Shown here: positions 3,951 through 19,093 of the stretch, piece by piece
Layout: each line of letters begins with the position of its first letter
How positions within the stretch are numbered: position 1 is the first letter of the stretch
Assembly (NCBI GenBank): GCA_023458215.1
Contig: JAEXAJ010000142.1
Span: 1 to 30,616 of the forward strand
Direction of reading: 5' to 3'
DNA length: 30,616 nt
Source of the DNA: Bacteroidota bacterium
GTDB taxonomy: Bacteria; Bacteroidota; Bacteroidia; Bacteroidales; Bacteroidaceae
Notes under the pieces: model-generated
What the model was told of the DNA's origin: nothing
Database searches by the model: none
What the model saw: only the letters and a program-made list of their open reading frames with translations
Translations under genes and position numbers: made by a program

Positions 3951-6900
3951 ATGAAGAAAATACTTGCCTACATTGCCTTCGGCTTTACAGCCATTGCCAG
4001 TCAAGCCGCCACTCCTCTGTGGATGCGTGACGTGCGCATTTCACCGGACGGAACAGAAATCGTGTTTTGCTACAAAGGAGACATTTACAAAATGCCCGCA
4101 AAAGGAGGTAAAGCTACCCAGCTCACCACGCAAGACTCTTACGAATGCACCCCGGTATGGTCGCCCGACGGCAAACAAATCGCTTTTGCCAGCGACAGAT
4201 ATGGCAATTTCGACGTCTATGTGATGCCTGCCAATGGCGGAACCGCCCGAAGACTGACGACTAATTCAGCCGGCGAACTGCCTTCAGCTTTTACCCCGGA
4301 CGGCAAGTATATTCTCTTTTCCGCTTCCATTCAAGACCCTGCAAATAGTGCCCTCTTCCCTACCTCGGCCATGACCGAGCTCTATAAAGTACCCACCGCC
4401 GGAGGACGTACCGAACAAGTATTAGGTACTCCAGCCGAAGCCGTAAACTTCGATAAATCCGGTAAGCTGTTCTTTTATCAGGATCGTAAAGGTTTTGAGG
4501 ATGAATGGCGTAAACATCATACCTCCTCCATCACCCGTGATGTATGGATGTACGATACACAAACGGGAAAACATACCAACCTCACTCAGCATGCGGGTGA
4601 AGACCGTAACCCGGTATTGTCTCCCGACGGGCAAACTGTTTACTTCCTGAGCGAACGCAACGGCGGTACGTTCAACGTCTATTCTTTCCCACTCGCCCAG
4701 CCGCAATCGGTGAAAGAAGTTACTTCCTTCAAAACTCATCCCGTACGCTTCCTTTCTATGAGCGACAACGGGACGTTGTGCTATGGATATGACGGAGAAA
4801 TCTATACCCAGCAAAACGGTTCCGCTCCACAAAAGCTTAATGTAGAAATCGTGCGCGACGACCAACCACAACTCGCCAATCTGGACTTTACCAACGGAGC
4901 TACTTCGGGAACTGTTTCGCCGGATGGCAAGCAAGTAGCTTTCATCATACGTGGTGAGGTATTTGTAACTTCTACCGACTACGCCACTACCAAACAAATC
5001 ACCCATACAGCCGCCCGTGAAGCTGGTCTTACCTTTGCTCCTGATAACCGCACCCTGGCATACGCCAGCGAACGCAACGGTAACTGGCAACTCTACTTAG
5101 CGAAAATTGTCCGCAAAGAAGACCCGAACTTCCCGAATGCGACTTTGATAAACGAAGAAGTCCTGCTGCCTTCCACCACCGTAGAACGAGCCTATCCGCA
5201 ATTCTCGCCCGACGGCAAAGAACTGGCTTTTATCGAAGATCGTATCCGCCTGATGGTACTCAATCTGGAAACAAAGAAGGTACGCCAGATCACTGACGGC
5301 TCTACTTGGTACAGCACCGGCGGCGGATTTGATTACGCCTGGTCGCCGGATGGCAAATGGTTCACTCTCGAATTTACCGGGAACAAGCATGATCCTTATT
5401 CGGATATAGGCATCGTCAGCGCTCAAGGCAACAGCCCGATTGTAAACTTGACCAATAGTGGTTATACGAGCGAATCTCCTCGTTTTGTACTCGACGGCAA
5501 CGCCATACTTTTCACTACCGAACGCTACGGCATGCGCGCACATGCCTCTTGGGGTTCTCAAAACGACGCGATGCTCATATTCCTCAATCAAGATGCCTAC
5601 GACAAATATTGTCTGAGCAAAGAAGACTACGAGTTGCGCAAAGAACTGGAAGACCAGCAGAAGAAAGACAAAGAAAAAGACAGCGATAAAGATAAAGGCA
5701 AGAAGAAGGAAACCAAGAAAGAGGATACCGAAGCCGCCAAGGTGAAGGATATCGTTGTAGACTTGAAGAATATTGAAGACCGCATTGTGCGTCTGACACC
5801 CAACTCTTCGGATATGGGTAGTACAATCATTTCCAAAGACGGCGAGACTCTTTATTACTTGGCTGCCTTTGAAGGTGGTTTCGATCTGTGGAAGATGGAT
5901 CTGCGTAAGAAAGACACCAAACTTCTTCATAAACTGGATGCCGGATGGGCAAACATGGAACTGGACAAAGAGGGCAAAAACCTCTTTATCCTAAGCAGCA
6001 AAGAGATGCAGAAGATGGATATTGCTTCCAGCGAGTTAAAGCCCATCAACTTCCGCGCCTCCATGAAAATGGATCTCGCTGCCGAACGCGAATACATGTT
6101 CGACCATGTCTACAAACAGCAACAGAAACGTTTCTACAACCTCAGCATGCACGGGGTAGATTGGGATGCCATGTCTGCCGCCTACCGCAAATTCCTGCCC
6201 CACATCAGCAACAACTATGACTTTGCCGAATTGCTGAGTGAGTGGTTGGGCGAACTGAATGTGTCGCACACCGGAGGCAGATTCTACCCGAAAGGACAAA
6301 GCGAACCTACCGCAAGCCTGGGATTACTTTTCGACTGGAATTATGCAGACAAAGGTATGCTGATATCCGAGGTTATTGATAAAAGTCCTTTCGACAAGGC
6401 CGATACAAAGGTAAAAGCGGGTGTGGTCATCGAGAAGATAGATGGCGTAGAAATCACCCCCGAAATGGATTACTACACATTACTCAATAACAAAGCAAAG
6501 AAGAAAACGCTTATCTCACTATACAATCCGCAGACTAAAGAGCGTTGGGAAGAAGTGACTATCCCCATCAGCAACGGTGCCCTTAGTGATTTACTCTATA
6601 CCCGTTGGGTAAAACAGCGTGCGGCTGATGTTGATAAATGGTCTAACGGTCGCCTGGGATATGTCCATATCGAATCGATGGGGGATGATAGTTTCCGTTC
6701 CATCTATTCGGATATCCTCGGAAAATATAATAACCGTGAGGGAATTGTGATTGATACCCGCTTCAATGGTGGCGGTCGCCTGCACGAAGATGTTGAAGTA
6801 TTGTTCAGCGGAAAGAAATACTTTACACAAGTAGTACGCGGCCGTGAAGCTTGTGACATGCCCAGCCGCCGCTGGAACAAGCCTTCTATCATGTTGATGT

Positions 6901-8974: not shown

Positions 8975-9982
8975 ATGCAAGTCTATTCTAAAAAAGAAGC
9001 CATCAACAGAATGAATGCACTGGCAAAAGCCGATGTACCCTTCCTTTTTATTATAGACTATACACAGAAACACTCTTACATTGAAACTCTTGACGAAATT
9101 GATGCCTCTACCTGCCTTTACCAATTCCGGAAGGCAGGCAACGTAGCTGAAACGGTTCCGGGTATTGTCGGGGAAACTATCGCCCGATATACAGGAAAAT
9201 TAGATTGGGCATTCACTCCTCCTACCCCTGATGCTTATAAGCACGCCTTCGACATCGTGAAACAGAATTTGCTGGCAGGCAACAGTTATCTGACAAATCT
9301 GACCTGCAAAGTTCCTGTTATCACAAACTTGACATTAAAAGAGCTATTTCAGCAATCAAAAGCACTCTATAAACTTTGGTTAAAAGATAAATTCACTTGC
9401 TTCTCTCCCGAAATCTTTGTTCGCATCGAAGAAGGAAAGATCAGGTCCTACCCCATGAAAGGGACAATAGACGCAACCTTGCCGGATGCGGAAGCTCGCT
9501 TAATGGAAGATGAAAAAGAAGCAGCCGAGCATGCTACCATCGTCGACCTGATACGCAATGACCTGAGCATGGTTGCAGAACATGTAACAGTAGACTCCTA
9601 CCGTTATATAGACCTGCTGCAAACCAATAAAGGCCCTATTCTACAAACCAGCTCCGAAATCTGCGGCACTCTGCCCGATGATTACACAGAACACATCGGT
9701 GACATCTTGTTCAAGCTGCTCCCTGCCGGTTCCATCACCGGTGCGCCTAAGCCTAAAACGATGCAAATCATTGCTGAAGCGGAAAAGTATGAACGGGGAT
9801 TTTACACCGGAGTTATGGGTTGCTACGCAAACAAGCAATTGGATAGTGCCGTCATGATACGATTCATAGAGCAGGAAAACGGGCAACTTTATTTCAAGGC
9901 AGGCGGCGGCATCACCGCCAAAAGCCAATGGGAAAACGAGTACGACGAAGTAATACAGAAAGTTTATGTGCCGATTTATTGA
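8975..9982 (+). CDS. pabB: Aminodeoxychorismate synthase component I (PabB)
   Basis: 335 residues, shorter than the about 450 of the E. coli enzyme because the N-terminal part is reduced. It converts chorismate (with ammonia from a glutaminase partner) to 4-amino-4-deoxychorismate for folate synthesis. The chorismate-binding core is clear: CFSPEIFVRIEEGKIRSYPM then KGTI with Lys162, the Lys of the PIKGT motif that separates PabB from TrpE (which has Ala); IVDLIRNDLSMV near 189-200; LPAGSITGAPKPKTMQIIAE near 249-268; YTGVMGCY near 277; and FKAGGGITAKSQWENEYDE near 307-325. No pabA lies in the window. It overlaps pabC by 17 bases, indicating translational coupling. Confidence 0.93.
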   Translation: MQVYSKKEAINRMNALAKADVPFLFIIDYTQKHSYIETLDEIDASTCLYQFRKAGNVAETVPGIVGETIARYTGKLDWAFTPPTPDAYKHAFDIVKQNLLAGNSYLTNLTCKVPVITNLTLKELFQQSKALYKLWLKDKFTCFSPEIFVRIEEGKIRSYPMKGTIDATLPDAEARLMEDEKEAAEHATIVDLIRNDLSMVAEHVTVDSYRYIDLLQTNKGPILQTSSEICGTLPDDYTEHIGDILFKLLPAGSITGAPKPKTMQIIAEAEKYERGFYTGVMGCYANKQLDSAVMIRFIEQENGQLYFKAGGGITAKSQWENEYDEVIQKVYVPIY

Positions 9983-10565
9983 AACCATACGCATTGATGA
10001 CAGAGAAATCCGCAATCTGCCCTACCATAACAGAAGATTGAACAAAACCCGCTCCCATTTCTGGCAAGGAAGTTCTCGGCTGCAATTGGAAGATTACATA
10101 AACACCGTACAGAATGCAGGGATATTCAAAGCACGCGTGGTATATGGAGAAACGGGCATTGAAGAAGTAGACTATTCTGCCTATAATATAAGATGTGTAC
10201 AGTCATTAGCCATTATTCAGTCCGACACCATTGACTACACCTACAAAAGCACAGACCGGATGGCACTGAACGATCTCTTTGCCCGGCGTGGCACATGCGA
10301 CGATATTCTGATTGTAAAACAAGGATTATTAACCGATACCTCCATTGCCAACATCGCCCTTTACGACGGCAACTATTGGTACACCCCTAAACAGCCGTTA
10401 CTGAAAGGAACCAAGCGGGCGCAACTTTTAGACAAAGGTATTCTCCGGGAAAAAGAAATCAGACTAGAAGATTTATCCTCATACTCCATCATCCGCCTGT
10501 TCAATGCCATGATAGATTGGGGCGAATTGGAATTACCTATCAGTGCTTTGCACTCCACATTCTAA
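9966..10565 (+). CDS. pabC: Aminodeoxychorismate lyase (PabC-like class IV PLP enzyme)
   Basis: 199 residues starting MCRFIETIRIDDREIRNLPY within the end of pabB. Class IV aminotransferase fold: the N-terminal LPYHNRRLNKTR; a likely PLP lysine, Lys94, in YTYKSTDRMALNDLF, matching the K..N/DR pattern of E. coli PabC; and GLLTDTSIANIALYDGNYWY then TPKQPLLKGTKRAQLLDKGI, the usual PLP-phosphate and substrate-binding region. It would release pyruvate from aminodeoxychorismate to give p-aminobenzoate. The protein is shorter than the E. coli enzyme (about 270), as is usual in Bacteroides. The coupling with pabB strongly supports the function over a D-amino acid or branched-chain aminotransferase. 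Confidence 0.88.
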   Translation: MCRFIETIRIDDREIRNLPYHNRRLNKTRSHFWQGSSRLQLEDYINTVQNAGIFKARVVYGETGIEEVDYSAYNIRCVQSLAIIQSDTIDYTYKSTDRMALNDLFARRGTCDDILIVKQGLLTDTSIANIALYDGNYWYTPKQPLLKGTKRAQLLDKGILREKEIRLEDLSSYSIIRLFNAMIDWGELELPISALHSTF

Positions 10566-10572
10566 GCATATA

Positions 10573-10962
10573 TTACTCGTTCATATCGTTCAGATGTAAT
10601 TCCAATGCCTTGACAGATATGTAAATCTCATAGACCGATATGGTCAACGAAATAATCAACAATACCAATGCTAACCCGAAAATATAAACAGACACAATGT
10701 AAAGTTGGATATAAATAAAGAACATACTGACCACACACAACAACAAGCTTCCTATTCCTGTAACCTGCATGGCACGCGTCAGATAGAGCCGCTTTCTGAG
10801 ATTGGCAATCTGCGCCGCCTTCACCGAAGAAGGGTTCTCACGGTATTGTTCTTTCAAGGTACGCACCAGTTGTGCGTATGACAAAAAGCGGTTGGTGTAT
10901 GCCAACATTATCAATGATATAGCCGAAAACAGTAAAGCGGGGGTGGTTAAGTCTATTTCCAT
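10573..10962 (-). CDS. DUF2721-type membrane protein
   Basis: 129 residues, function unknown. Its pattern matches the DUF2721 family: an N-terminal helix TTPALLFSAISLIMLAYTNR, a basic cytosolic loop (SSVKAAQIANLRKRLYLTRAMQ), and two adjacent C-terminal helices (VTGIGSLLLCVVSMFFIYIQ; VSVYIFGLALVLLIISLTIS), then an amphipathic tail EIYISVKALELHL. It runs toward pabC with only 7 bases between the stop codons and no obvious hairpin, so the two units may read into each other. Confidence 0.75.
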   Translation of the reverse strand: MEIDLTTPALLFSAISLIMLAYTNRFLSYAQLVRTLKEQYRENPSSVKAAQIANLRKRLYLTRAMQVTGIGSLLLCVVSMFFIYIQLYIVSVYIFGLALVLLIISLTISVYEIYISVKALELHLNDMNE

Positions 10963-11024
10963 ATTTATCTGATTATTAAGTTGGGATTATGCTTGCAAAG
11001 ATAAGATGAAAGAATGACAATCTA

Positions 11025-12356
11025 CTATTTTGCACCATGGTCAATAAGAAATTGTTTCAATTCAGGTAAAGGAGACAGTTCCCCATCAGCAAGTTCAATA
11101 AGAGTTTCTCCACCCGGGTAAGCGCGCGTCAAGACTGCACCCGCTTTTATCAGAAGCATTGCAAGTTCACTCTTGCCTTGAATCACTGCCCTGTATAATG
11201 GATCGTAACCATAAGTGTCAAGACAGTTCACATCGGCACCTTGCTGAATAAGCAAAGCCAACAATTTGGTATCTTGCCCCGAGCGATCTACTGCCGCACG
11301 AATCATGCTCCGTCCATCTTTGGTTATCTGTTTCGCGTTAGCCCCATGCTGTAGCAACAACAGAGCAACGTCTTTGCAGCTATTTTCCGAAACAGCATTA
11401 TAAAGTGGCGTTTCGCCCAATACGTCAGCGGCGTTGACCTGCGCACCCTTTGCAAGCAACAGTTTTACTACGTCAGCCTTGCTATGAGAGGCTGCCAGAA
11501 ACAAGGGCGTTCTGCCGGAATTATCGGTTACATCTACCTCGATACCCTTCGCCAAAAGTTGCTGCACAACGTCCAAATTTCCTTCACCCGCTGCAATAGC
11601 AAGTGGAGAGTCCGCTCCCGGTTGTACAAAGACGTCGATGCCGCGAGACAGAAGCAGTTGCACAGCCTCGTTGTCATGGTTGGTCAGTGCTATATTAAGC
11701 ACATTATCTGTATAATAGTTTGAAGTGTTGATATTACATCCGTTGTCCAAGAGGAACTGTATCTTTGCAGCACGCGAAATAAGAGTATCTTGATTACGAC
11801 TGGCATTATAACTGTCCCTCAGATAATCTACAAAATGAAAACGGCGAATGTCGTACCCATAATCGAGCATCATACGGGCAAAGTCGAAGCGTTCGTGGTC
11901 AATCAGTTTCCCGAAAGTAGTAGTGGGCGATACATCGGCTTTTCTTTCGAGTTTTTTTGCCAGTGAGTAGAATTCATCCCAAGTGGTAGCGGGACTAACT
12001 ATCTTGTCGGACATTTCCATTTGAAGACGGAATATCTCTTGGCGTTCGTAATATTCATAAGCGCCACTTAACGGCAAAAAAGCATAAACGGCAATAGTAA
12101 TCCCCCATATTATACCTAATTTTGACATTTTAGAGCATTTGAAGACAGCCCAAAGCAGTATGATAGGAAAAGCAAGAAGTATCAGGAAGATAATAATTAC
12201 AGCAATCAGAAACTCTGCCCCAGCTGCTATACCTATGTTCAGATCCCTGTCTATAACCCAGTAATAGCTTGCCCATATCAAAAATGATATGACTATTGCA
12301 ACTATTCCCAATGCAACTTTTACCCCTCTCATACACAAAAAATTATTATCAGTCAT
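11025..12356 (-). CDS. Membrane-anchored ankyrin-repeat protein
   Basis: 443 residues from the ATG at 12356; the frame extends to a TTG at 12368 but the ATG is the better start. The N-terminus has about three membrane helices (VKVALGIVAIVISFLIWASY; FLIAVIIIFLILLAFPIILL; LGIIWGITIAVYAFLPLSGA). From about residue 135 on there are seven or so ankyrin repeats, the clearest being NSGRTPLFLAASHSKADVVK, LGETPLYNAVSENSCKDVAL and YGYDPLYRAVIQGKSELAML. Ankyrin repeats bind proteins; the partner is unknown. A perfect -7 box lies upstream on the same strand. The region is AT-balanced like its neighbours, so there is no sign of recent transfer. Confidence 0.85.
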   Translation of the reverse strand: MTDNNFLCMRGVKVALGIVAIVISFLIWASYYWVIDRDLNIGIAAGAEFLIAVIIIFLILLAFPIILLWAVFKCSKMSKLGIIWGITIAVYAFLPLSGAYEYYERQEIFRLQMEMSDKIVSPATTWDEFYSLAKKLERKADVSPTTTFGKLIDHERFDFARMMLDYGYDIRRFHFVDYLRDSYNASRNQDTLISRAAKIQFLLDNGCNINTSNYYTDNVLNIALTNHDNEAVQLLLSRGIDVFVQPGADSPLAIAAGEGNLDVVQQLLAKGIEVDVTDNSGRTPLFLAASHSKADVVKLLLAKGAQVNAADVLGETPLYNAVSENSCKDVALLLLQHGANAKQITKDGRSMIRAAVDRSGQDTKLLALLIQQGADVNCLDTYGYDPLYRAVIQGKSELAMLLIKAGAVLTRAYPGGETLIELADGELSPLPELKQFLIDHGAK

Positions 12357-12393
12357 ATTTTCTTTCAAGACACTTTAGCAGTTTATCTGCGCA

Positions 12394-12421
12394 CAAAGAT
12401 AGCATATAAAATCATAGCAAA
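12394..12421 (-). promoter_or_regulatory. Promoter of the ankyrin gene (-7 box TATCTTTG)
   Basis: On the minus strand TATCTTTG (12394-12401) is a perfect TAnnTTTG box, 37 bases before the ATG at 12356. A TTTG lies upstream at 12418-12421 but with a 16-base spacer, shorter than the usual 19-21, so only the -7 box is firm. Confidence 0.55.
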
Positions 12422-12459
12422 CTATTAGTGAAAGTCATTCCCAGCATAAGCAAAAATTT

Positions 12460-12658
12460 TTAAGCAAGACTGTTCATTTTAAGAACATACTTCCATTTCC
12501 CAAAGATTTATTCTACTTTTGCAGCTACATATCAACTCTCTATCTTTATAATTAAGCAAATACGACCATGCAATATACCGTTTCAGCTCCCACAGCCATA
12601 CATGCCAGTATCCAATTGCCGGCATCCATAAGTATCAGCAACCGGGCACTCATCCTGC
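12460..12658 (+). repeat. Direct repeat copy A: aroA promoter plus first 30 codons (truncated copy)
   Basis: These 199 bases match 15374-15573 with only about six substitutions and one single-base gap (about 96% identity by eye). The first about 87 bases, including the -7 box, are identical. Most differences are in the short leader just before the ATG (one gap, three changes), and three are in the coding part. Identity ends abruptly after CATCCTGC at both copies, and begins abruptly at TTAAGCAAGACTG. Confidence 0.95.
12514..12521 (+). promoter_or_regulatory. -7 box (TACTTTTG) of the truncated aroA copy
   Basis: Perfect TAnnTTTG box, with flanking sequence identical to the box of the intact aroA at 15428-15435. 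It faces the unknown gene at 12799, which has no promoter box of its own in the interval, so it may now drive that gene. Confidence 0.6.
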
Positions 12659-12681
12659 TCCTCAGTATTTTACAGACATAA
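12568..12681 (+). pseudogene. Truncated 5' fragment of aroA
   Basis: The ATG at 12568 corresponds to the aroA start. The frame gives 37 residues, MQYTVSAPTAIHASIQLPAS then ISISNRALIL, and then a foreign tail LLSILQT and a stop. Codon 21, the conserved active-site lysine of EPSP synthases (SKSISNRA), is ATA (Ile) instead of AAA. No catalytic domain is left, so it can only act as a leader peptide or dead remnant. The rest of the 12369-12798 interval holds two further tiny frames, 12684-12737 (17 codons) and 12738-12782 (14 codons), touching as TGAATG, with no recognisable function. Confidence 0.9.
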
Positions 12682-12798
12682 AAATGACCAATTATAAAAC
12701 TGTATTGCTTGAATTGAGAAAAGAAGAACAACATTGAATGAATTACAAGAATCGGTATGTTCTGAGTAAATGGTATTCATGATTATTTTCTTGGGCCT

Positions 12799-13692
12799 AT
12801 GAAGACAAAACGATGTTATGATTTTGTAGAAAAGGCAATTTATACTAATCCTATTACTATTGAGTTGGATTTTGTATCACCCTATATGCGGGGTAGTACC
12901 CTTAAACGTTTGGATAATGACCGCCTGATAATCTACCAACTTTCTGTTGGATGGATAGAATTATTATTCGCTATTTTTGCTTTTTGGTTATTTTTAGATG
13001 GTATTGTGAGTATAAATAATCGTGTGCAGAAACAACTTGATGAGTATAAGAAAATAGCAACTACAGAGATTTTTTATAAAAATGTAGATAATCCCAATAC
13101 TATCAGCCCATATCGTGCTAAAGTTGAACGAAAATCTAAAATTGAGGAGTCTGAAATGATTGCCAAATATAAAAATCTTGGAGAAGAAGGATACCGTGAA
13201 TATTTGAAAGAAAAAGAGTGGGCAAGAGGTTCGGAAAAAAGCTATGCTATTTTGATAGTAGGGACAGGCATGGTACTTTTGGTCATGGGCTTCCCTCGTC
13301 GCAAACGATTTATATTTGACCGCAAAACAGGTACAGTAACTTATCCTCGTTTCATGGGGATAGGTAACTACAAACGCCCTTTTCAGGAAGTTAATTTTAT
13401 ATATGCAAGAGCCGGTATGTATGTGACAGAACGAAAAGGTTTGGCTATTCTTCGTCCTAACGGAGTGGGACGGGTATTCATAAACTCTCAGTATCCAGAG
13501 CGTTTTCTCTCGTTCTATGTGTGGTATATGGACAAGAATCGTCCGTTACCTCCCGGAACTGCTTTCGACCCGTATCGTGAGCTTGATTACAATAATCGGA
13601 AAGCAGCTGGTTTTCCGCCTCCTTTATATCCGTCACTCATAGAAACCCCGGAATGGATAGGGGCTGGCAGTATGGAGCAGCGGGAAGATTAA
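12799..13692 (+). CDS. Unknown protein with two membrane segments
   Basis: 297 residues, family not recognised. The first about 50 residues are soluble, then a membrane helix near 53-71 (IELLFAIFAFWLFLDGIVSI), a long charged, lysine- and glutamate-rich stretch (about 75-145) that is probably helical, a second helix near 150-166 (AILIVGTGMVLLVMGF), and a soluble C-terminal part of about 130 residues opening with RRKRFIFDRKTGTVTYPRFM. The FDRKTGTVTYP phrase resembles PH-like membrane proteins in which a FDR..G.V..P hairpin follows the second helix, but this is only a likeness. The gene lies directly downstream of the truncated aroA copy inside the duplicated-end segment and is more AT-rich than flanking genes, consistent with acquisition. 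Confidence 0.7.
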   Translation: MKTKRCYDFVEKAIYTNPITIELDFVSPYMRGSTLKRLDNDRLIIYQLSVGWIELLFAIFAFWLFLDGIVSINNRVQKQLDEYKKIATTEIFYKNVDNPNTISPYRAKVERKSKIEESEMIAKYKNLGEEGYREYLKEKEWARGSEKSYAILIVGTGMVLLVMGFPRRKRFIFDRKTGTVTYPRFMGIGNYKRPFQEVNFIYARAGMYVTERKGLAILRPNGVGRVFINSQYPERFLSFYVWYMDKNRPLPPGTAFDPYRELDYNNRKAAGFPPPLYPSLIETPEWIGAGSMEQRED

Positions 13693-13707
13693 ATAGTTTT
13701 TATTTCT

Positions 13708-13715
13708 TATCTTTG
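13708..13715 (+). promoter_or_regulatory. -7 box (TATCTTTG)
   Basis: A perfect TAnnTTTG box just after the stop of the preceding gene and 30 bases before the ATG at 13746. It supports that ATG as the start over the frame's earlier ATG at 13653. No -33 box is evident. Confidence 0.5.
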
Positions 13716-13745
13716 ATGCTAGATTATCAAAAAACAAAATGCTAT

Positions 13746-14138
13746 ATGGAAACAAGAATGACCTCGAACAGAATCACCGAACTTAAGCCCGGTGAGATTT
13801 TCGTATTCGGCAGTAATCTGGAAGGTGAACATGGCGGTGGTGCCGCACTACTTGCCTGGCGCGAGTGGGGTGCCATATGGGGACAAGGCGCCGGACTGCA
13901 AGGACAAACATACGGCATCCCCACCATGCACGGCGGACCGGATGCCATAAAGCCTTATGTGGATGAATTTATCAGCTTTGCCAAAGAACATCCCGAAATG
14001 ACTTTTCTCGTCACGGAGATAGGTTGCGGCATAGCAGGATTCAAACCTTCGGAGATAGCCCCGCTTTTCAGAGAGGGCACAGATATTCCCAATATCTATC
14101 TGCCTCAACGTTTTTGGGATGTATTGAATGCGAAATAA
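13746..14138 (+). CDS. A1S_2505-like (macro-domain-like) protein
   Basis: 130 residues from the ATG at 13746. The earlier in-frame ATG at 13653 would overlap the previous gene and lies before the -7 box. The sequence ELKPGEIFVFGSNLEGEHGG followed by GAALLAWREWGAIWGQGAGL and QGQTYGIPTM matches a small conserved family annotated in other genomes as A1S_2505 phage-associated protein. The FGSN.....GGGAA pattern recalls the ADP-ribose-binding loop of macro domains, so a role in ADP-ribose or nucleotide-derivative metabolism is possible but unproven. The 3' end overlaps the convergent MFS gene by 34 bases. Confidence 0.7.
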   Translation: METRMTSNRITELKPGEIFVFGSNLEGEHGGGAALLAWREWGAIWGQGAGLQGQTYGIPTMHGGPDAIKPYVDEFISFAKEHPEMTFLVTEIGCGIAGFKPSEIAPLFREGTDIPNIYLPQRFWDVLNAK

Positions 14139-15307
14139 AGTCGTACGCGTTTTCTGCCCAATGCCAACAAAATACAAATCAACGAGCAGAGGGCGCTGAC
14201 GGCAAAGATTATCCCCGTTGACGTAAGAATATTCCCAATACCCACCAACGGGGACACTATTCCGCCAGAAGCAAAACAAACAGCACCTAATAAAGCGGAA
14301 GCAGTACCGGCATTGTTACGCTGACTCTCCATTGCCAAAGTCGTAGTAGAAGTAAAAGTCATTCCCATCATAAACAGAAGTACTAATAACAATAACTCAT
14401 ACATCCAGAAACTGCACCCTGACATCAAAGCCACGCACTCTCCGACAGCAGCTACCAACATCCCCAGACATCCGGTAAGAGTACAACTAAGCGGACGGTG
14501 AAACTTAACGGATAGTGCCGCCGCAACCCCAATCGCCACGGCATTCACTGCAAAGCAAAAGCTGAAGCCTAACGCTGAAAAACCGTAATGTTGCTGCACG
14601 ATAAATGGCGAAGAGGAAATATAAGTAAAAAGCACTCCTTGGGCAAATGCCATCTGTAAAGTATAAAACACGTATTGACGGTCTTGAACTACCACTTTGA
14701 AACTACGGAACGTATCGTTCCACCTAGCTACCTGACGACTCTCCTTCGGTAACGATTCCCGGAAGAAATAACTCCCCGCAAGCAATATCAACCCAAGCCC
14801 TAGCAGTATGCAGAATATACCTTGCCAACCAATAATCTCCGTAAACACTCCTCCAATGACCGGCGCCACAACAGGTGCCACCCCATTAATCGCTCCAATA
14901 ACCGCCAGCATTTTTGCCAACTCTTTGCCTGAGTACTTATCCGTTGCCACCGAACGTGAGATGACAATACCACCCGCTCCTGCCACACCTTGCACCAAAC
15001 GAAAAGCAACAAACTGCTCTATATTCTGTGCAAACAAACAGAAAAGTGTTGAGATGATAAACAGCCACATAGCTACCAACAAAGGCAAGCGTCTGCCGTA
15101 ACGATCGCTCAACGGACCAAAAAGAATTTGTCCCGCAGCCAAGCCTATCATACTGGTAGTGAGTCCCAATTGTACCATTGAGGAAGTCGTATAAAAATAA
15201 TCTCTCATAGCCGGCAAACTGGGCAAATACATATCTGTAATAAAAGGTCCAAACGCCGTAAGCATGCCCAGTAGTACCAACAAAAATATTCTTGAATTTT
15301 CCTTCAT
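14105..15307 (-). CDS. Bcr/CflA-type MFS drug efflux transporter
   Basis: 400 residues from the ATG at 15307; a GTG at 15334 in the same frame overlaps the -7 box and so cannot be in the transcript. Twelve membrane helices are expected. The N-terminus FLLVLLGMLTAFGPFITDMY then LPSLPAMRDYF carries the D-x-Y-LPSLP signature of the Bcr/CflA family, and GPLSDRYGRRLPLL is MFS motif A in the loop after helix 2. GVAGAGGIVISRSVATDKYS is the helix 4 motif C/B region. Such proton antiporters export chloramphenicol, bicyclomycin or other small molecules; the substrate cannot be told. It is divergent from aroA and lies in the segment bounded by the aroA repeats. Confidence 0.9.
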   Translation of the reverse strand: MKENSRIFLLVLLGMLTAFGPFITDMYLPSLPAMRDYFYTTSSMVQLGLTTSMIGLAAGQILFGPLSDRYGRRLPLLVAMWLFIISTLFCLFAQNIEQFVAFRLVQGVAGAGGIVISRSVATDKYSGKELAKMLAVIGAINGVAPVVAPVIGGVFTEIIGWQGIFCILLGLGLILLAGSYFFRESLPKESRQVARWNDTFRSFKVVVQDRQYVFYTLQMAFAQGVLFTYISSSPFIVQQHYGFSALGFSFCFAVNAVAIGVAAALSVKFHRPLSCTLTGCLGMLVAAVGECVALMSGCSFWMYELLLLVLLFMMGMTFTSTTTLAMESQRNNAGTASALLGAVCFASGGIVSPLVGIGNILTSTGIIFAVSALCSLICILLALGRKRVRLYFAFNTSQKR

Positions 15308-15333
15308 CTTATCATACCTATTTATACTGACCA

Positions 15334-15341
15334 CAAAAGTA
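15334..15341 (-). promoter_or_regulatory. -7 box (TACTTTTG) of the MFS gene
   Basis: Perfect TAnnTTTG on the minus strand. Transcription would start about 5-8 bases downstream, leaving a leader of about 20 bases before the ATG at 15307. Confidence 0.55.
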
Positions 15342-15373
15342 CACTAAATGCTCTGCACACTCGCTTTAAATTC

Positions 15374-15573
15374 TTAAGCAAGACTGTTCATTTTAAGAAC
15401 ATACTTCCATTTCCCAAAGATTTATTCTACTTTTGCAGCTACATATCAACTCTCTATCTTTTATTATTAAATAAATACGACCATGCAATATACCGTTTCA
15501 GCTCCCACAGCCATATATGCCAGCATCCAATTGCCGGCATCCAAAAGTATCAGCAACCGGGCACTCATCCTGC
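15374..15573 (+). repeat. Direct repeat copy B: promoter and first 30 codons of the intact aroA
   Basis: Partner of the 199-base copy at 12460-12658 (offset 2,914-2,915 bases). Here the sequence runs on without a break into the complete aroA frame. Confidence 0.95.
15428..15435 (+). promoter_or_regulatory. -7 box (TACTTTTG) of aroA
   Basis: Perfect TAnnTTTG box 47 bases before the aroA ATG; no good TTTG is seen 19-21 bases upstream. Confidence 0.65.
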
Positions 15574-16772
15574 ACTCGCTTGCCCACGGCAACATTCTCC
15601 CATCCAACCTGAGCGATTGCGATGATACCCGTGTCATGATCCGTGCACTAGATGGTAATCCCGAACATATCGACATCCTGGCCGCCGGAACCGCCATGCG
15701 TTTTTTGACGGCTTACTTAAGCGTAACACCAGGAACTCGCATCATAACCGGTACACAGCGTATGCAGCAACGTCCCATCCGCATTCTTGTAAATGCTTTG
15801 CGTGAGCTTGGCGCACAGATAGAATATGTCAATAATGAAGGATATCCTCCCCTACGCATCACCGGAGGAGAACTGAAAAAAGAAGAAATTTCCCTTGCCG
15901 GAAACGTTAGTTCACAATATATCTCCGCTTTATTAATGATAGGCTCTGTTTTGCCTAAAGGTCTACAACTGCATCTTACCGGTGATATCATCTCCCGTCC
16001 TTATATCAACCTCACGCTGCAACTGATGCGTGACTTCGGAGCTCAAGCAGAATGGAGTACAGACAACAGCATTACGGTAAGTCCCGGCGGTTATCGAGAT
16101 GTGCCTTTTACGGTTGAAAGTGATTGGAGCGCCGCTTCTTATTGGTATCAGATAATGGCACTTTATTCAATTAAAAATGAAGAGTTAAAAATTAAAAGAG
16201 GAGAAGAGATAAAGAGGAATTATGGAAAAGAAATTTTTGAGATTGAACTTCTCGGTCTTTTTTCTCACAGCTACCAAGGTGATAGCCGCGGTGCAGAAGT
16301 CTTCTCCCGCCTAGGTGTAAAGACTGAATACACTGAACGAGGAGTAAGGCTAACCAAATCCGGTACTCCGGTTGAATACCTCGAAGAAGACATGGTGGAT
16401 ATACCCGACCTGGCCCAAACTTTTGTAGTGACCTGCTGCCTAATGAATATTCCTTTCCGTTTCACCGGACTGCAAAGTCTGAAGATAAAGGAGACTGACC
16501 GCATCACCGCACTTATCACCGAATTGCATAAATTAGGTTATGTGATACAGTCCGAGCAAGACAGTATCCTAATATGGAACGGTGAACGTTGTCCGGCTGA
16601 AGAAGCCCCTATCATCGCTACTTACGAAGATCACCGCATGGCAATGGCTTTTGCGCCTGCCTGCCTGGTGCTTCCACAGATTGAGATCGACGAACCACAG
16701 GTAGTATCGAAGTCTTATCCCACTTATTGGGAAAATCTAAAGCAAGCAGGTTTCCGGATTGAAACCAAGTAA
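15483..16772 (+). CDS. aroA: 3-phosphoshikimate 1-carboxyvinyltransferase (EPSP synthase)
   Basis: 429 residues. It joins phosphoenolpyruvate to shikimate-3-phosphate in the chorismate pathway. Diagnostic motifs: LPASKSISNRALIL with Lys21; LAAGTAMRFLTAYLSV near 66-81 and GTQRMQQRPI near 90-99; GNVSSQYISALLM near 140-152; VESDWSAASYWYQI near 211-224; LKIKETDRITALITELHKLG near 350; and TYEDHRMAMAFAPACLVLPQ near 385. An extra AT-rich stretch of about 25 residues (about 228-252) interrupts the usual sequence between WYQIMAL and EIELLGLF. It is in frame and lies at a surface-like loop, so the enzyme may still be active. A hairpin terminator follows. The product chorismate feeds the PabB/PabC pair encoded 5 kb upstream. 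Confidence 0.95.
   Translation: MQYTVSAPTAIYASIQLPASKSISNRALILHSLAHGNILPSNLSDCDDTRVMIRALDGNPEHIDILAAGTAMRFLTAYLSVTPGTRIITGTQRMQQRPIRILVNALRELGAQIEYVNNEGYPPLRITGGELKKEEISLAGNVSSQYISALLMIGSVLPKGLQLHLTGDIISRPYINLTLQLMRDFGAQAEWSTDNSITVSPGGYRDVPFTVESDWSAASYWYQIMALYSIKNEELKIKRGEEIKRNYGKEIFEIELLGLFSHSYQGDSRGAEVFSRLGVKTEYTERGVRLTKSGTPVEYLEEDMVDIPDLAQTFVVTCCLMNIPFRFTGLQSLKIKETDRITALITELHKLGYVIQSEQDSILIWNGERCPAEEAPIIATYEDHRMAMAFAPACLVLPQIEIDEPQVVSKSYPTYWENLKQAGFRIETK
16164..16238 (+). other. In-frame AT-rich insert within aroA
   Basis: About 75 bases encode YSIKNEELKIKRGEEIKRNY and GKEIF, rich in Lys, Glu and Ile, unlike the surrounding enzyme. The DNA contains TTAAAAAT repeated (TCAATTAAAAATGAAGAG followed by TTAAAAATTAAAAGAG), resembling the low-complexity TTAAAAATGAA-type tracts common between Bacteroides genes. 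Boundaries are approximate, judged from recalled Bacteroides AroA sequences in which MAL is followed within a few residues by ELLGLF. Confidence 0.6.
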
Positions 16773-16790
16773 GTAGCAATGCTTTTAAAT

Positions 16791-16828
16791 ATTACGCCTA
16801 TACCCCTTTCTCGTATAGGTGTAATTTT
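16791..16828 (+). terminator. Intrinsic terminator of aroA
   Basis: ATTACGCCTATAC (16791-16803) pairs with GTATAGGTGTAAT (16813-16825; one G-T pair) across a 9-base loop and is followed by TTTT. It lies 18 bases after the stop codon. Confidence 0.85.
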
Positions 16829-16862
16829 AGTGATGCAAGATACTCTTAAGGCATAAACAATA

Positions 16863-16928
16863 CTTTACTCGAGCATATTTTGTGCAAAAGATCTTAACGT
16901 AAAATGCACAAAATACGCCCGAGTAAAG
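16863..16928. repeat. Large isolated inverted repeat (24-bp arms, 18-base loop)
   Basis: The left arm 16863-16886 (CTTTACTCGAGCATATTTTG then TGCA) pairs with 16905-16928 (TGCACAAAATACGCCCGAGT then AAAG), with two mismatches that are wobble pairs when read on one strand. It lies between the aroA terminator and the PUL, with no T-run, so it is not a simple terminator. It could be a small mobile repeat, a protein-binding palindrome or a structured RNA. Confidence 0.8.
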
Positions 16929-16949
16929 CATAGTTACAAATACAGACTT

Positions 16950-17246
16950 AGGGCCTGTCAAAAAACGACCAGTGCCGTATTTTTCAGCACATTACCTCCT
17001 TTTTTTAGTAAATTAACACTATAGAGATAAATATAAGGTTCACCCAAAGAATAGAAGAAAGAGTAGTTCCTGGCCAAGTTCCAATTGCATAGCTTGGCAC
17101 GAGAACTATTCAGCAGACTCAAATTAAAGAGTTGCGGAATTTAAGAACATATAAAATATAAATTTCCCCTGACATGGGTAAACATTGCTCGCCATTGAGG
17201 CGTCCATCCTTTCCACCGCCTTCAAACGATCTTCTATTTTTCGCAT
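16950..17246 (-). other. Relic-like intergenic sequence downstream of the PUL
   Basis: No gene is recognised. Two minus-strand frames stand out: one from the ATG at 17246 to 17124 (40 residues, MRKIEDRLKAVERMDASMAS then NVYPCQGKF), overlapping the end of the GH97 gene; and one open frame of about 60 codons (about 17140 to 16958) containing SLGEPYIYLYSVNLLKKGG and VLKNTALVVF. Neither has a good ribosome-binding site. GGGCCTGTCAAAAAA at 16951 resembles insertion-sequence tips. It may be a decayed mobile element or a dispersed repeat. Confidence 0.3.
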
Positions 17247-19093
17247 ATAACCATTGCACAACCTCCACGAGGTAACAAATCCAGTTTTAGGATGGTTTTG
17301 CCCGTTACTTCTTTGCTCATTATAGCAACTTGAGTACGTGTCTTCACCTTATCACCACCATCTGTATAGAGAGTAAGATCATACTTTTTATTAACATCTA
17401 AAAAGCTTAATGGCAACTGGAATTTACGCTCTTCATTATTCGTAATGCATCCTACATACCAAACATTGTCTTTTTGACGGGCAATTGAAATGTACTCCCC
17501 TATGCTACCTTCAAGTACCTTCGTATCGTCCCACGTGGTAGGCAAGTTATCGAAGAACGGTAATTCCGGTTCATTTTGGAAATCCTGTGGAGCATCATAC
17601 CAATACAAGAATTGTAACGGACTGTAGTTAATAACAGAAAGTGCCATTTGGTGACAAGAAGTGTTTTTCAATGAACGGGCATTTAGCGGCAAATTAGTCT
17701 TTAACTCCTTACGATGATAATAACAAACTGTACAATCTGCGGCACCTGACAAGAATCTGGTAAATGGTAAAGTCGTATTATTCACACCATCGGGGAACTC
17801 TTCATTGCCTCTGACCCCTTCCTGAGTAAGCAAATTAGGATAAGTACGACTAAAACCAGTCGGTCTATATTCATCATGGATATCTACCATCAAATGATGT
17901 TTCGCACATTTTGCCACAGCATTATGAAGCCAGGTAGTCCATTTATACGATCCCACATGAACGAATCCGAATTTAATTCCGGCTACTCCCCAAGATTCAT
18001 ACAAAGGCAAAATTTCATCCAAATGTTCCGTTAGAGCGCGTTGATTAACATATAGCCATAATCCTACTCCTTTTGAAGTTGCATATTCTACGATTTTAGG
18101 TATATCCAAGCCACGTTGAGCTACTCTAGGATCAGATTCTTTTGATGCTTCAGCTCCATACCACCCTGCATCAAAATGGATATACTGTAGATTTCTTTCT
18201 GCTGCCAAATCAATCGCTTTTTTTGCACCTTCCATTGATAAAGATACGCACCTGATAACAGTTCCCGGCTTAATCCAATTCGTATTTCTTATTTGACAAG
18301 GCTTGTTTAAGTTTAAAACCAAGTCATTGTTTTCCAACAAGTCTTTAGGTTGCTTTGCAACCATAATGACACGCCAAGGAGTAGAGAACGGGATAAAATC
18401 TTCTACAGGATCATACATCTTACATCGAATCACATTCTTCTCGCCTTCTTTAACAACAAACTTAGTACGACTATAGTCCACCATCTCAGCTTCAAGCAGA
18501 CTGGCAAATAATCCATTTTCTAATTCTAATGTCAAAGGTCTCTCAGCCTCTCCCGGCCAATTTTCAACGGGCATACGAGTATGTATTGCTTGAGCATAAG
18601 GAGCAAACCAACAATATGTGTTTTCAGGCACTACAAAACTCGTTTTCTCTGAATCAACATACAAATTTTGGTTACTTCCTACATAATGATAGCGGAAAGC
18701 AATTCCTTCATCATAAGCACGAACTATCAAATGCATGCGATTTGCTGTTCCATCCTTTTTTATTATATATATAGCTTGATTATAGCAATCTTTGATCTTC
18801 GCTCTTTCCCCGTAAACCGGTTTCCAACATGTATCAACAATCTCATTTTCCACTTTCTCAACTACCAAATTATTTTCCCAGTTGGTAATTCCTAATTCAG
18901 ATTGAAGAATGACCTTTTTTTGCTGATAGGAAACATCATAACTCAGATATTTATTATTTGCAAATAAGTTGAACACCAAATTACCATCAGGAGATTTCAA
19001 ACTAAAATTATCTTGCGCAAACAAAGTTCCGTGCACTAATACTATTGCAAAAAGTAAACCTAAGAATCTTCTCATTGAATTCATCTTTTTCAT
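17234..19093 (-). CDS. GH97 glycoside hydrolase, lacking the retaining-type nucleophile (SusB-like inverting type?)
   Basis: 619 residues from the ATG at 19093 (a TTG precedes it in frame). Sec signal peptide MRRFLGLLFAIVLVHGTLFA; an N-terminal beta-sandwich (about 27-260), a TIM barrel (about 270-530) and a C-terminal beta domain, the GH97 layout. After barrel strand 4 the sequence is GIKFGFVHVG, with Gly (about 376) where retaining GH97 enzymes have the nucleophile Asp. The strand-5 motif is VDIHDEYRPTGFSRTYPNLL, followed by TQEGVRGNEEF. By alignment with SusB (VNAHEAVRPTG...NESARGTEYE) the Glu at about 425 and the Glu at about 431 match recalled Ca2+-binding and acid residues, while SusB Glu508 is Asp. 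GH97 enzymes act on alpha-glucosides or alpha-galactosides; substrate unknown. It is the last PUL gene, behind a terminator-like hairpin. Confidence 0.88.
   Translation of the reverse strand: MKKMNSMRRFLGLLFAIVLVHGTLFAQDNFSLKSPDGNLVFNLFANNKYLSYDVSYQQKKVILQSELGITNWENNLVVEKVENEIVDTCWKPVYGERAKIKDCYNQAIYIIKKDGTANRMHLIVRAYDEGIAFRYHYVGSNQNLYVDSEKTSFVVPENTYCWFAPYAQAIHTRMPVENWPGEAERPLTLELENGLFASLLEAEMVDYSRTKFVVKEGEKNVIRCKMYDPVEDFIPFSTPWRVIMVAKQPKDLLENNDLVLNLNKPCQIRNTNWIKPGTVIRCVSLSMEGAKKAIDLAAERNLQYIHFDAGWYGAEASKESDPRVAQRGLDIPKIVEYATSKGVGLWLYVNQRALTEHLDEILPLYESWGVAGIKFGFVHVGSYKWTTWLHNAVAKCAKHHLMVDIHDEYRPTGFSRTYPNLLTQEGVRGNEEFPDGVNNTTLPFTRFLSGAADCTVCYYHRKELKTNLPLNARSLKNTSCHQMALSVINYSPLQFLYWYDAPQDFQNEPELPFFDNLPTTWDDTKVLEGSIGEYISIARQKDNVWYVGCITNNEERKFQLPLSFLDVNKKYDLTLYTDGGDKVKTRTQVAIMSKEVTGKTILKLDLLPRGGCAMVICEK

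Follow-up and report, generated by a model that had tools for sequence, protein, structure and literature searches.

A stranded aroA 5' end in a Bacteroides contig, most likely the scar of an uneven recombination that brought in an ankyrin gene, a fragment of an immunity-like gene, or both

The locus described here lies beside the housekeeping gene aroA in a stretch of 30,616 nucleotides (contig JAEXAJ010000142.1, assembly GCA_023458215.1, Bacteroidota bacterium, Bacteroidaceae), the whole of which is hereafter called the window. The 5' end of aroA is found there twice, and a putative immunity-like gene lies between the two copies. Experimental descriptions of homology-facilitated illegitimate recombination (HFIR) come from competent bacteria and from conjugation in Escherichia coli (excerpts of PMC3240628). 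In Vibrio cholerae, orphan immunity-like genes of the type VI secretion system (T6SS) gather in arrays with displaced gene remnants, and HFIR has been proposed (excerpts of PMC5361080). In Bacteroidales, the rAID systems carry immunity-like genes outside T6SS loci and are defined, in the portions of PMC12247911 cited here, by a tyrosine recombinase and, after it, an array of short genes that share one orientation. Finally, Bte2 of B. fragilis is given in part of PMC12718326 as a pore-forming effector of the VasX type whose immunity gene, bti2, lies next to it.

The window most likely bears the scar of an uneven recombination beside aroA, ordinary in kind, which would have brought in an ankyrin gene, a fragment of an immunity-like gene, or both. 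One homologous and one illegitimate join, as in HFIR, would explain this layout, nothing mobile being needed (PMC3240628, in excerpts). The V. cholerae arrays stand at the 3' end of T6SS clusters (PMC5361080, in excerpts), whereas the immunity-like gene described here stands at a housekeeping gene, and none of the window's genes was recognised as belonging to a T6SS. As in the rAID systems, this gene lies outside a T6SS locus. Unlike them, the window has neither an array of several short co-oriented genes nor a recombinase among the 17 proteins scanned, a set that left aside SusC, the second GH97 protein, the TPR protein and small open reading frames.

We compared the window with itself (blastn, E ≤ 1e-10) and obtained a single match (E 5e-92), between 12454..12658 (+; copy 1) and 15368..15573 (+; copy 2). 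The two copies (205 and 206 bases) differ by seven mismatches and one 1-base gap in 206 aligned columns (96.1% identity). Beyond the repeat, ungapped identity drops to 38% in the 50 bases leftward and to 18% in the 50 bases rightward, so that both ends are sharp. The repeat comprises the promoter and leader (114 bases 5' of the ATG in copy 1, 115 in copy 2), then 30 codons and one base. Copy 2 runs into a complete aroA (15483..16772, +; 429 codons; Pfam EPSP_synthase, 256 bits). An earlier note, drawn from the sequence alone, had already reported such a repeat, slightly shorter and about 96% identical, with its far copy opening a full aroA, and both points are borne out.

Judged by its reading frame, copy 1 is dead. 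The frame opens at an ATG at 12568 and stops at 12679-12681, after 37 codons. In addition, codon 21 is ATA (Ile) in copy 1 and AAA (Lys) in the living aroA. Among the 120 best AroA matches, this position is occupied by Lys in 119 and by Asn in one; in the EPSP synthase of E. coli, this Lys21 corresponds to Lys22 of the active site. Position 12 shows the reverse situation: copy 1 has His, as do 80 of the 120 matches (including P0122-P0133), the living aroA has Tyr, found in one of the 120, and the closest match (P0121, 96% identical) has Asn. As copy 1 keeps His12 and copy 2 keeps Lys21, neither copy is a recent or simple derivative of the other. In the leader too, the alignment places apparently derived bases in each copy.

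Copy 1 retains the whole conserved promoter block of aroA. Its left edge falls about 3 bases or less from the point where similarity upstream of aroA begins in B. fluxus and in genomes G001 and G012 (query bases 4, 3 and 3, respectively); in the remaining matching genomes this similarity starts further in, for example at base 33 or 38. With a whole promoter block and a natural left edge, copy 1 has the look of a 5' end left behind by an aroA that formerly worked. The edge, based on these three relatives, suits an arrangement in which an ankyrin gene once stood before a working aroA better than it suits a random piece.

For comparison, we searched 158 Bacteroides genomes with the repeat, the aroA region, the membrane protein and the ankyrin protein. 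Its closest relatives indicate that the window comes from a Bacteroides chromosome. With the repeat as query, 70 genomes gave one match each (E ≤ 0.001), with a best identity of 81% in B. fluxus (G002), and the longer aroA region matched 65 genomes (E ≤ 1e-60), with a best identity of 78% in G001. Since the best identities are this low, the species of the window is not in the set. The two copies are 96% alike whereas the closest other species reaches 81% over the repeat (species being about 80% alike), and they therefore come from one species or from a very close one. A tree of flank proteins (up to six proteins, 20 rows) grouped the window with G025, B. fluxus and G119, at a support of 94/93 that was not starred, followed by G154, G100, G001, G012 and others.

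Three genes lie between the copies: an unknown membrane protein, an A1S_2505-type protein and a major facilitator superfamily (MFS) efflux pump. Pfam and NCBIfam searches agree with this description, which the earlier note had given. Comparison with relatives indicates that two of the three are old residents: the A1S_2505-family gene (13746..14138, +; NF049995, 142.5 bits for a cut-off of 45) and the Bcr/CflA-type MFS gene (14105..15334, −; TIGR00710, 268.5 bits). In G035, G037, G046, G083, G117, G007 and G140, the A1S_2505-type (+), MFS (−) and aroA (+) genes adjoin in this order. MFS is followed by aroA in G012, G088 and G139, and the A1S_2505-type gene by aroA in G003, G158 and G026. In B. 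oleiciplenus (G004), G127, G154 and G100, the A1S_2505-MFS pair is located 5.4-6.8 kb from aroA, with efflux and other genes between. In G001 the pair closes one contig and aroA opens another. We also recorded the first window gene found within 700 bases upstream of aroA in 113 distinct loci (103 with at least 1 kb upstream), a census biased by the fact that some loci were fetched for carrying the MFS gene. MFS came first in 11 loci, the A1S_2505-type gene, DUF2721 and pabC in 4 each, Tricorn and an AspT-like permease in 2 each, and TerB in 1; 75 had none of these genes.

In the MFS tree, the window groups with G012 and G001 (98/97), with a path to G001 of 0.31, against 0.27 in the flank tree. 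This fits vertical descent of the MFS gene. The A1S_2505 tree did not resolve the position of the window. G025, B. fluxus and G119 lack the pair at this locus, and a single loss could account for this.

To the left, the variable stretch begins at a DUF2721 gene (10573..10962, −; Pfam, 5' flank compared by eye). In G158 and G026, DUF2721 adjoins the A1S_2505-type gene, the two being divergent and separated by 140 bases. By eye, in the window, the promoter side of DUF2721 ends at about 11000 and the A1S_2505 promoter starts at about 13690. The ankyrin gene, copy 1 and the fragment of a membrane-protein gene all lie between these two promoters, which are neighbours in these two relatives, and are the gained parts. 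The earlier note had proposed that a segment carrying all three genes recombined at aroA and stranded the old 5' end. The stranding accords with the promoter block and left edge of copy 1, but the cargo was misjudged: two of its genes are old neighbours, and what was gained is the ankyrin gene, the aroA fragment and the membrane-gene fragment. Its interpretation is thus partly supported, being about half right.

The first gained gene (11025..12368, −) encodes a membrane-anchored ankyrin-repeat protein of 447 residues (Pfam Ank families). A relative with 98% identity (P0241), which uses a start 12 codons later, is found in five metagenome contigs of up to 16,738 bases, and the next best match is at 31%. 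In the genus set, 25 of the 158 genomes gave a match (best 38%). Among five proteins submitted to PADLOC, it alone gave matches, probably due to its repeats.

The second gained gene belongs to a fragment (12659..13689, +) that sequence comparison suggests was cut at both ends from a tandem array of membrane-protein genes. Its main gene (12799..13692, +; 297 residues) has an intact start. At 12765..12806 (+) lies a decayed 3' tail, with one stop inside, of a preceding family member: it scored 28.9 bits against P0003 (tblastn), compared with 22.3 bits for the best of 500 shuffles (481 of which gave any score). The C-terminus is cut short, with 297 residues against 320-335 in seven close relatives (P0002, P0003 and P0005-P0009). 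Two others, P0001 (285; 92% identity) and P0004 (293), are likewise short and terminate at the same residue. The end of the gene abuts the A1S_2505 promoter. The shortened 3' end and the decayed upstream tail together give the impression of a piece cut at both ends from a tandem array.

The membrane protein has no Pfam match, even at E 5, and has 830 relatives in the database (E ≤ 0.001). In the genus set, relatives occur in 4 of the 158 genomes (39-69% identity over part of the protein). Five of eight relatives match the NCBIfam Bacteroidales immunity family bfi2_fam (NF053700; E 0.012 to 1.9e-7, 15.1-30.8 bits) and three do not; none reaches the cut-off of 350 bits, and the window protein scores 13.9 bits (E 0.027). 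Going by their names, bfi2_fam and bti2 would be one family. The likeness to Bte2/bti2-type pairs lies in this weak family match and in G019, where a VasX_N protein precedes two relatives and the locus also holds TssC, a VgrG-like protein and PAAR. The window protein differs from such pairs in its marginal match to bfi2_fam, its truncation and the lack of an effector beside it, none having been recognised in family scans of the window proteins. By these comparisons, it is related, though truncated at the 3' end, to a family with T6SS immunity-like proteins among its members, and would likely have an orphan immunity-like role. In G060, G031 and G059, four proteins were checked by family for T6SS genes and none had a Pfam match.

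Some side observations concern this family. In G019 (L202 7553-14647), the VgrG-like gene, the VasX_N gene, the two relatives and PAAR stand in a row and form a candidate effector-immunity module. In G031 (L201 4244-17744), two relatives lie a few kb from a Tricorn-like gene that is 77% identical to that of the window neighbourhood, and no aroA is present within the stretch examined. The predicted fold of the membrane protein (mean predicted local distance difference test score 83.6) gave no match at E ≤ 0.001. The best one, 8kei_D, a chain of the NADPH oxidase 2-p22phox-EROS complex (E 8.8e-3, probability 0.99, template modelling score 0.29 by query), was rejected as too weak, and PH domains, ranked lower, were not used.

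We tentatively favour, at close to an even chance, a mosaic locus spliced from two haplotypes of one species. In the first, the ankyrin gene would stand directly before aroA; in the second, the order would be membrane gene, A1S_2505-type gene, MFS gene and aroA. A homologous join would have occurred at one end (in aroA if to the right, around pabC/DUF2721 if to the left) and an illegitimate join at the other, linking aroA codon 30 to the membrane-gene array. The old aroA 5' end would have been stranded and a whole aroA kept. Some relatives have the A1S_2505-MFS pair before aroA and others do not, and the natural left edge and full promoter block of copy 1, as well as the doubly cut fragment, fit such a splice. 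That both haplotypes belonged to one species, or a very close one, is suggested by the resemblance of the copies, far above that to the closest other species. The selected part may be the ankyrin gene or the immunity-like gene, aroA being a mere anchor.

Measured against HFIR, the homologous join can be sought in the two aroA 5' copies and the illegitimate join at 12658, where the repeat ends abruptly. Two results weigh against the splice. First, neither parental haplotype was found: among 154 aroA loci (not all distinct), the species of the window not being among them, none carries the ankyrin gene (E ≤ 1e-8, at least 25% coverage) or the membrane gene (E ≤ 1e-8). Second, a search for microhomology at the join, by extending the decayed tail from 12765 to 12658, was unsuccessful: the extension scored 0.5 bits, whereas 1000 shuffles reached up to 7.7.

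Possible but doubtful is a repair with copied filler, in which DNA broken between DUF2721 and the A1S_2505-type gene would have been mended with the ankyrin gene, a 206-base copy of the nearby aroA and a piece of the membrane-gene array. The ancestral order seen in G158 and G026 would put the three gained pieces in one place, and the membrane-gene piece has cut ends. For a random piece, however, a left end on the natural promoter-block edge of three relatives would be a coincidence, and both copies must have changed since, copy 2 also having apparently derived bases.

It is quite unlikely that an element or a DNA circle with an aroA 5' end of its own inserted at aroA, through an integrase or a single crossover, and was mostly deleted later. 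Such an integration usually leaves an interval flanked by direct repeats of a gene 5' end. Against this, no recombinase, integrase or transposase was named among the 17 window proteins scanned, and the interval holds none, its genes being the membrane protein, the A1S_2505-type gene and the MFS gene, of which the last two are old residents. Megablast gave no match in plasmids (10500-17500) or phages (12300-15600); in viral contigs, no relative of the membrane protein or of AroA was found.

A tandem duplication around aroA followed by a deletion, which the earlier note also allowed for, is very unlikely. It would yield direct repeats with a truncated copy, but copy 1 should then keep the old left neighbour, whereas MFS, as in relatives, adjoins copy 2 and the new left neighbour is on copy 1; the plain version does not fit and a further rearrangement would be needed. 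Finally, a false join of two co-assembled strains is highly improbable: the layout is the expected splice of two strains, and a long identical stretch in the 5' half of both copies could have mis-threaded reads, but the window has no repeat at 12658 to carry the mis-joining, the copies differ at eight places, copy 1 is decayed and MFS-aroA is the old order.

We then considered whether such events recur at aroA. No second repeat match was found in the 70 matching genomes (at most five candidates scored per genome). Similarly, none of 153 loci (not all distinct; 92 with at least 3 kb upstream) has a second aroA 5' coding end, while the window, used as a control, gave the full repeat; nine loci gave small matches, all noncoding or with at most 32 bases of coding sequence. 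The earlier note had looked to relatives with the ankyrin gene beside a single aroA, or with the truncated copy and another cargo, and neither appeared in these loci or in the 154 above; an exchange of changing cargo at aroA is not shown there. Many relatives lack the segment, so that its presence in every genome, which would have spoken against the note's account, is not what was found.

The sizes of the longest contigs gave a possible trace of other cases. Pairing the nine closest membrane-protein matches with the 120 AroA matches (1,080 pairs) gave three pairs whose longest contigs are exactly equal in size (46,253 bases once, for P0004 and P0126; 7,943 bases twice, for P0009 with P0213 and P0228, same source label). 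With 111 distant family members (13,320 pairs), three equal sizes were also obtained (3,978, 6,190 and 10,682 bases), with different source labels, and the ankyrin pairs (14,040) gave none. The equal sizes suggest, without proof, that members of the membrane-protein family lie near aroA in other species or strains. The AroA proteins P0213 and P0228 (7,943 bases) are 99.8 and 99.3% identical to AroA of G119, whose genome has no member of the family, and the AroA protein P0126 is 89.5% identical to that of the window. We consider it unlikely that the aroA start is a recurrent Bacteroides landing site for orphan VasX-immunity-like genes, loaded by one-sided, aroA-anchored recombination that strands old aroA 5' ends. 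Among publications on Bacteroides aroA with insertion and recombination, no title or abstract opening describes such a locus.

As it stands, this is one scar on one contig. If two haplotypes were indeed spliced, small non-mobile pieces such as the ankyrin gene and the immunity-like gene could enter a Bacteroides chromosome without an element of their own, an essential metabolic gene (aroA) serving as anchor. If the site were used repeatedly, the aroA flank would be a place to seek interbacterial-defence genes outside the known rAID and T6SS loci.

A transfer of the aroA block from another species was also considered, as AroA and A1S_2505 are closest to G001, DUF2721 to B. fluxus and pabC to G025. 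The AroA tree rejected neither the grouping of the window with B. fluxus, G119 and G025 (approximately unbiased test, P = 0.184) nor that with G001 (P = 0.23). We set this transfer aside in view of the MFS path and of the copies being far more alike than species are. Within aroA, the region 16160-16240 is a length-variable charged stretch; AroA has 429 residues here and 417-430 in close relatives.

Other variation was seen around aroA. In B. fluxus (L147 8724-18052), about 9.7 kb separate DUF2721 from aroA and hold a FecI/FecR-like pair and a SusC/SusD-type locus (names given by eye), a further large acquisition at this position. In G001, the contig ends before MFS and before aroA (C3/C30; L179 start, L180 end) share a near-identical stretch of 23-24 bases. 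Should MFS and aroA adjoin there, possibly with something between them, this stretch would form an inverted repeat. In Candidatus Bacteroides pullicola (L020, about 5195-5440 and 9746-9832; aroA starts at 10001), as many as three further copies of the noncoding stretch that precedes aroA are found within 5 kb, in either orientation and with 74-84% identity, and these copies resemble a small repeated element.

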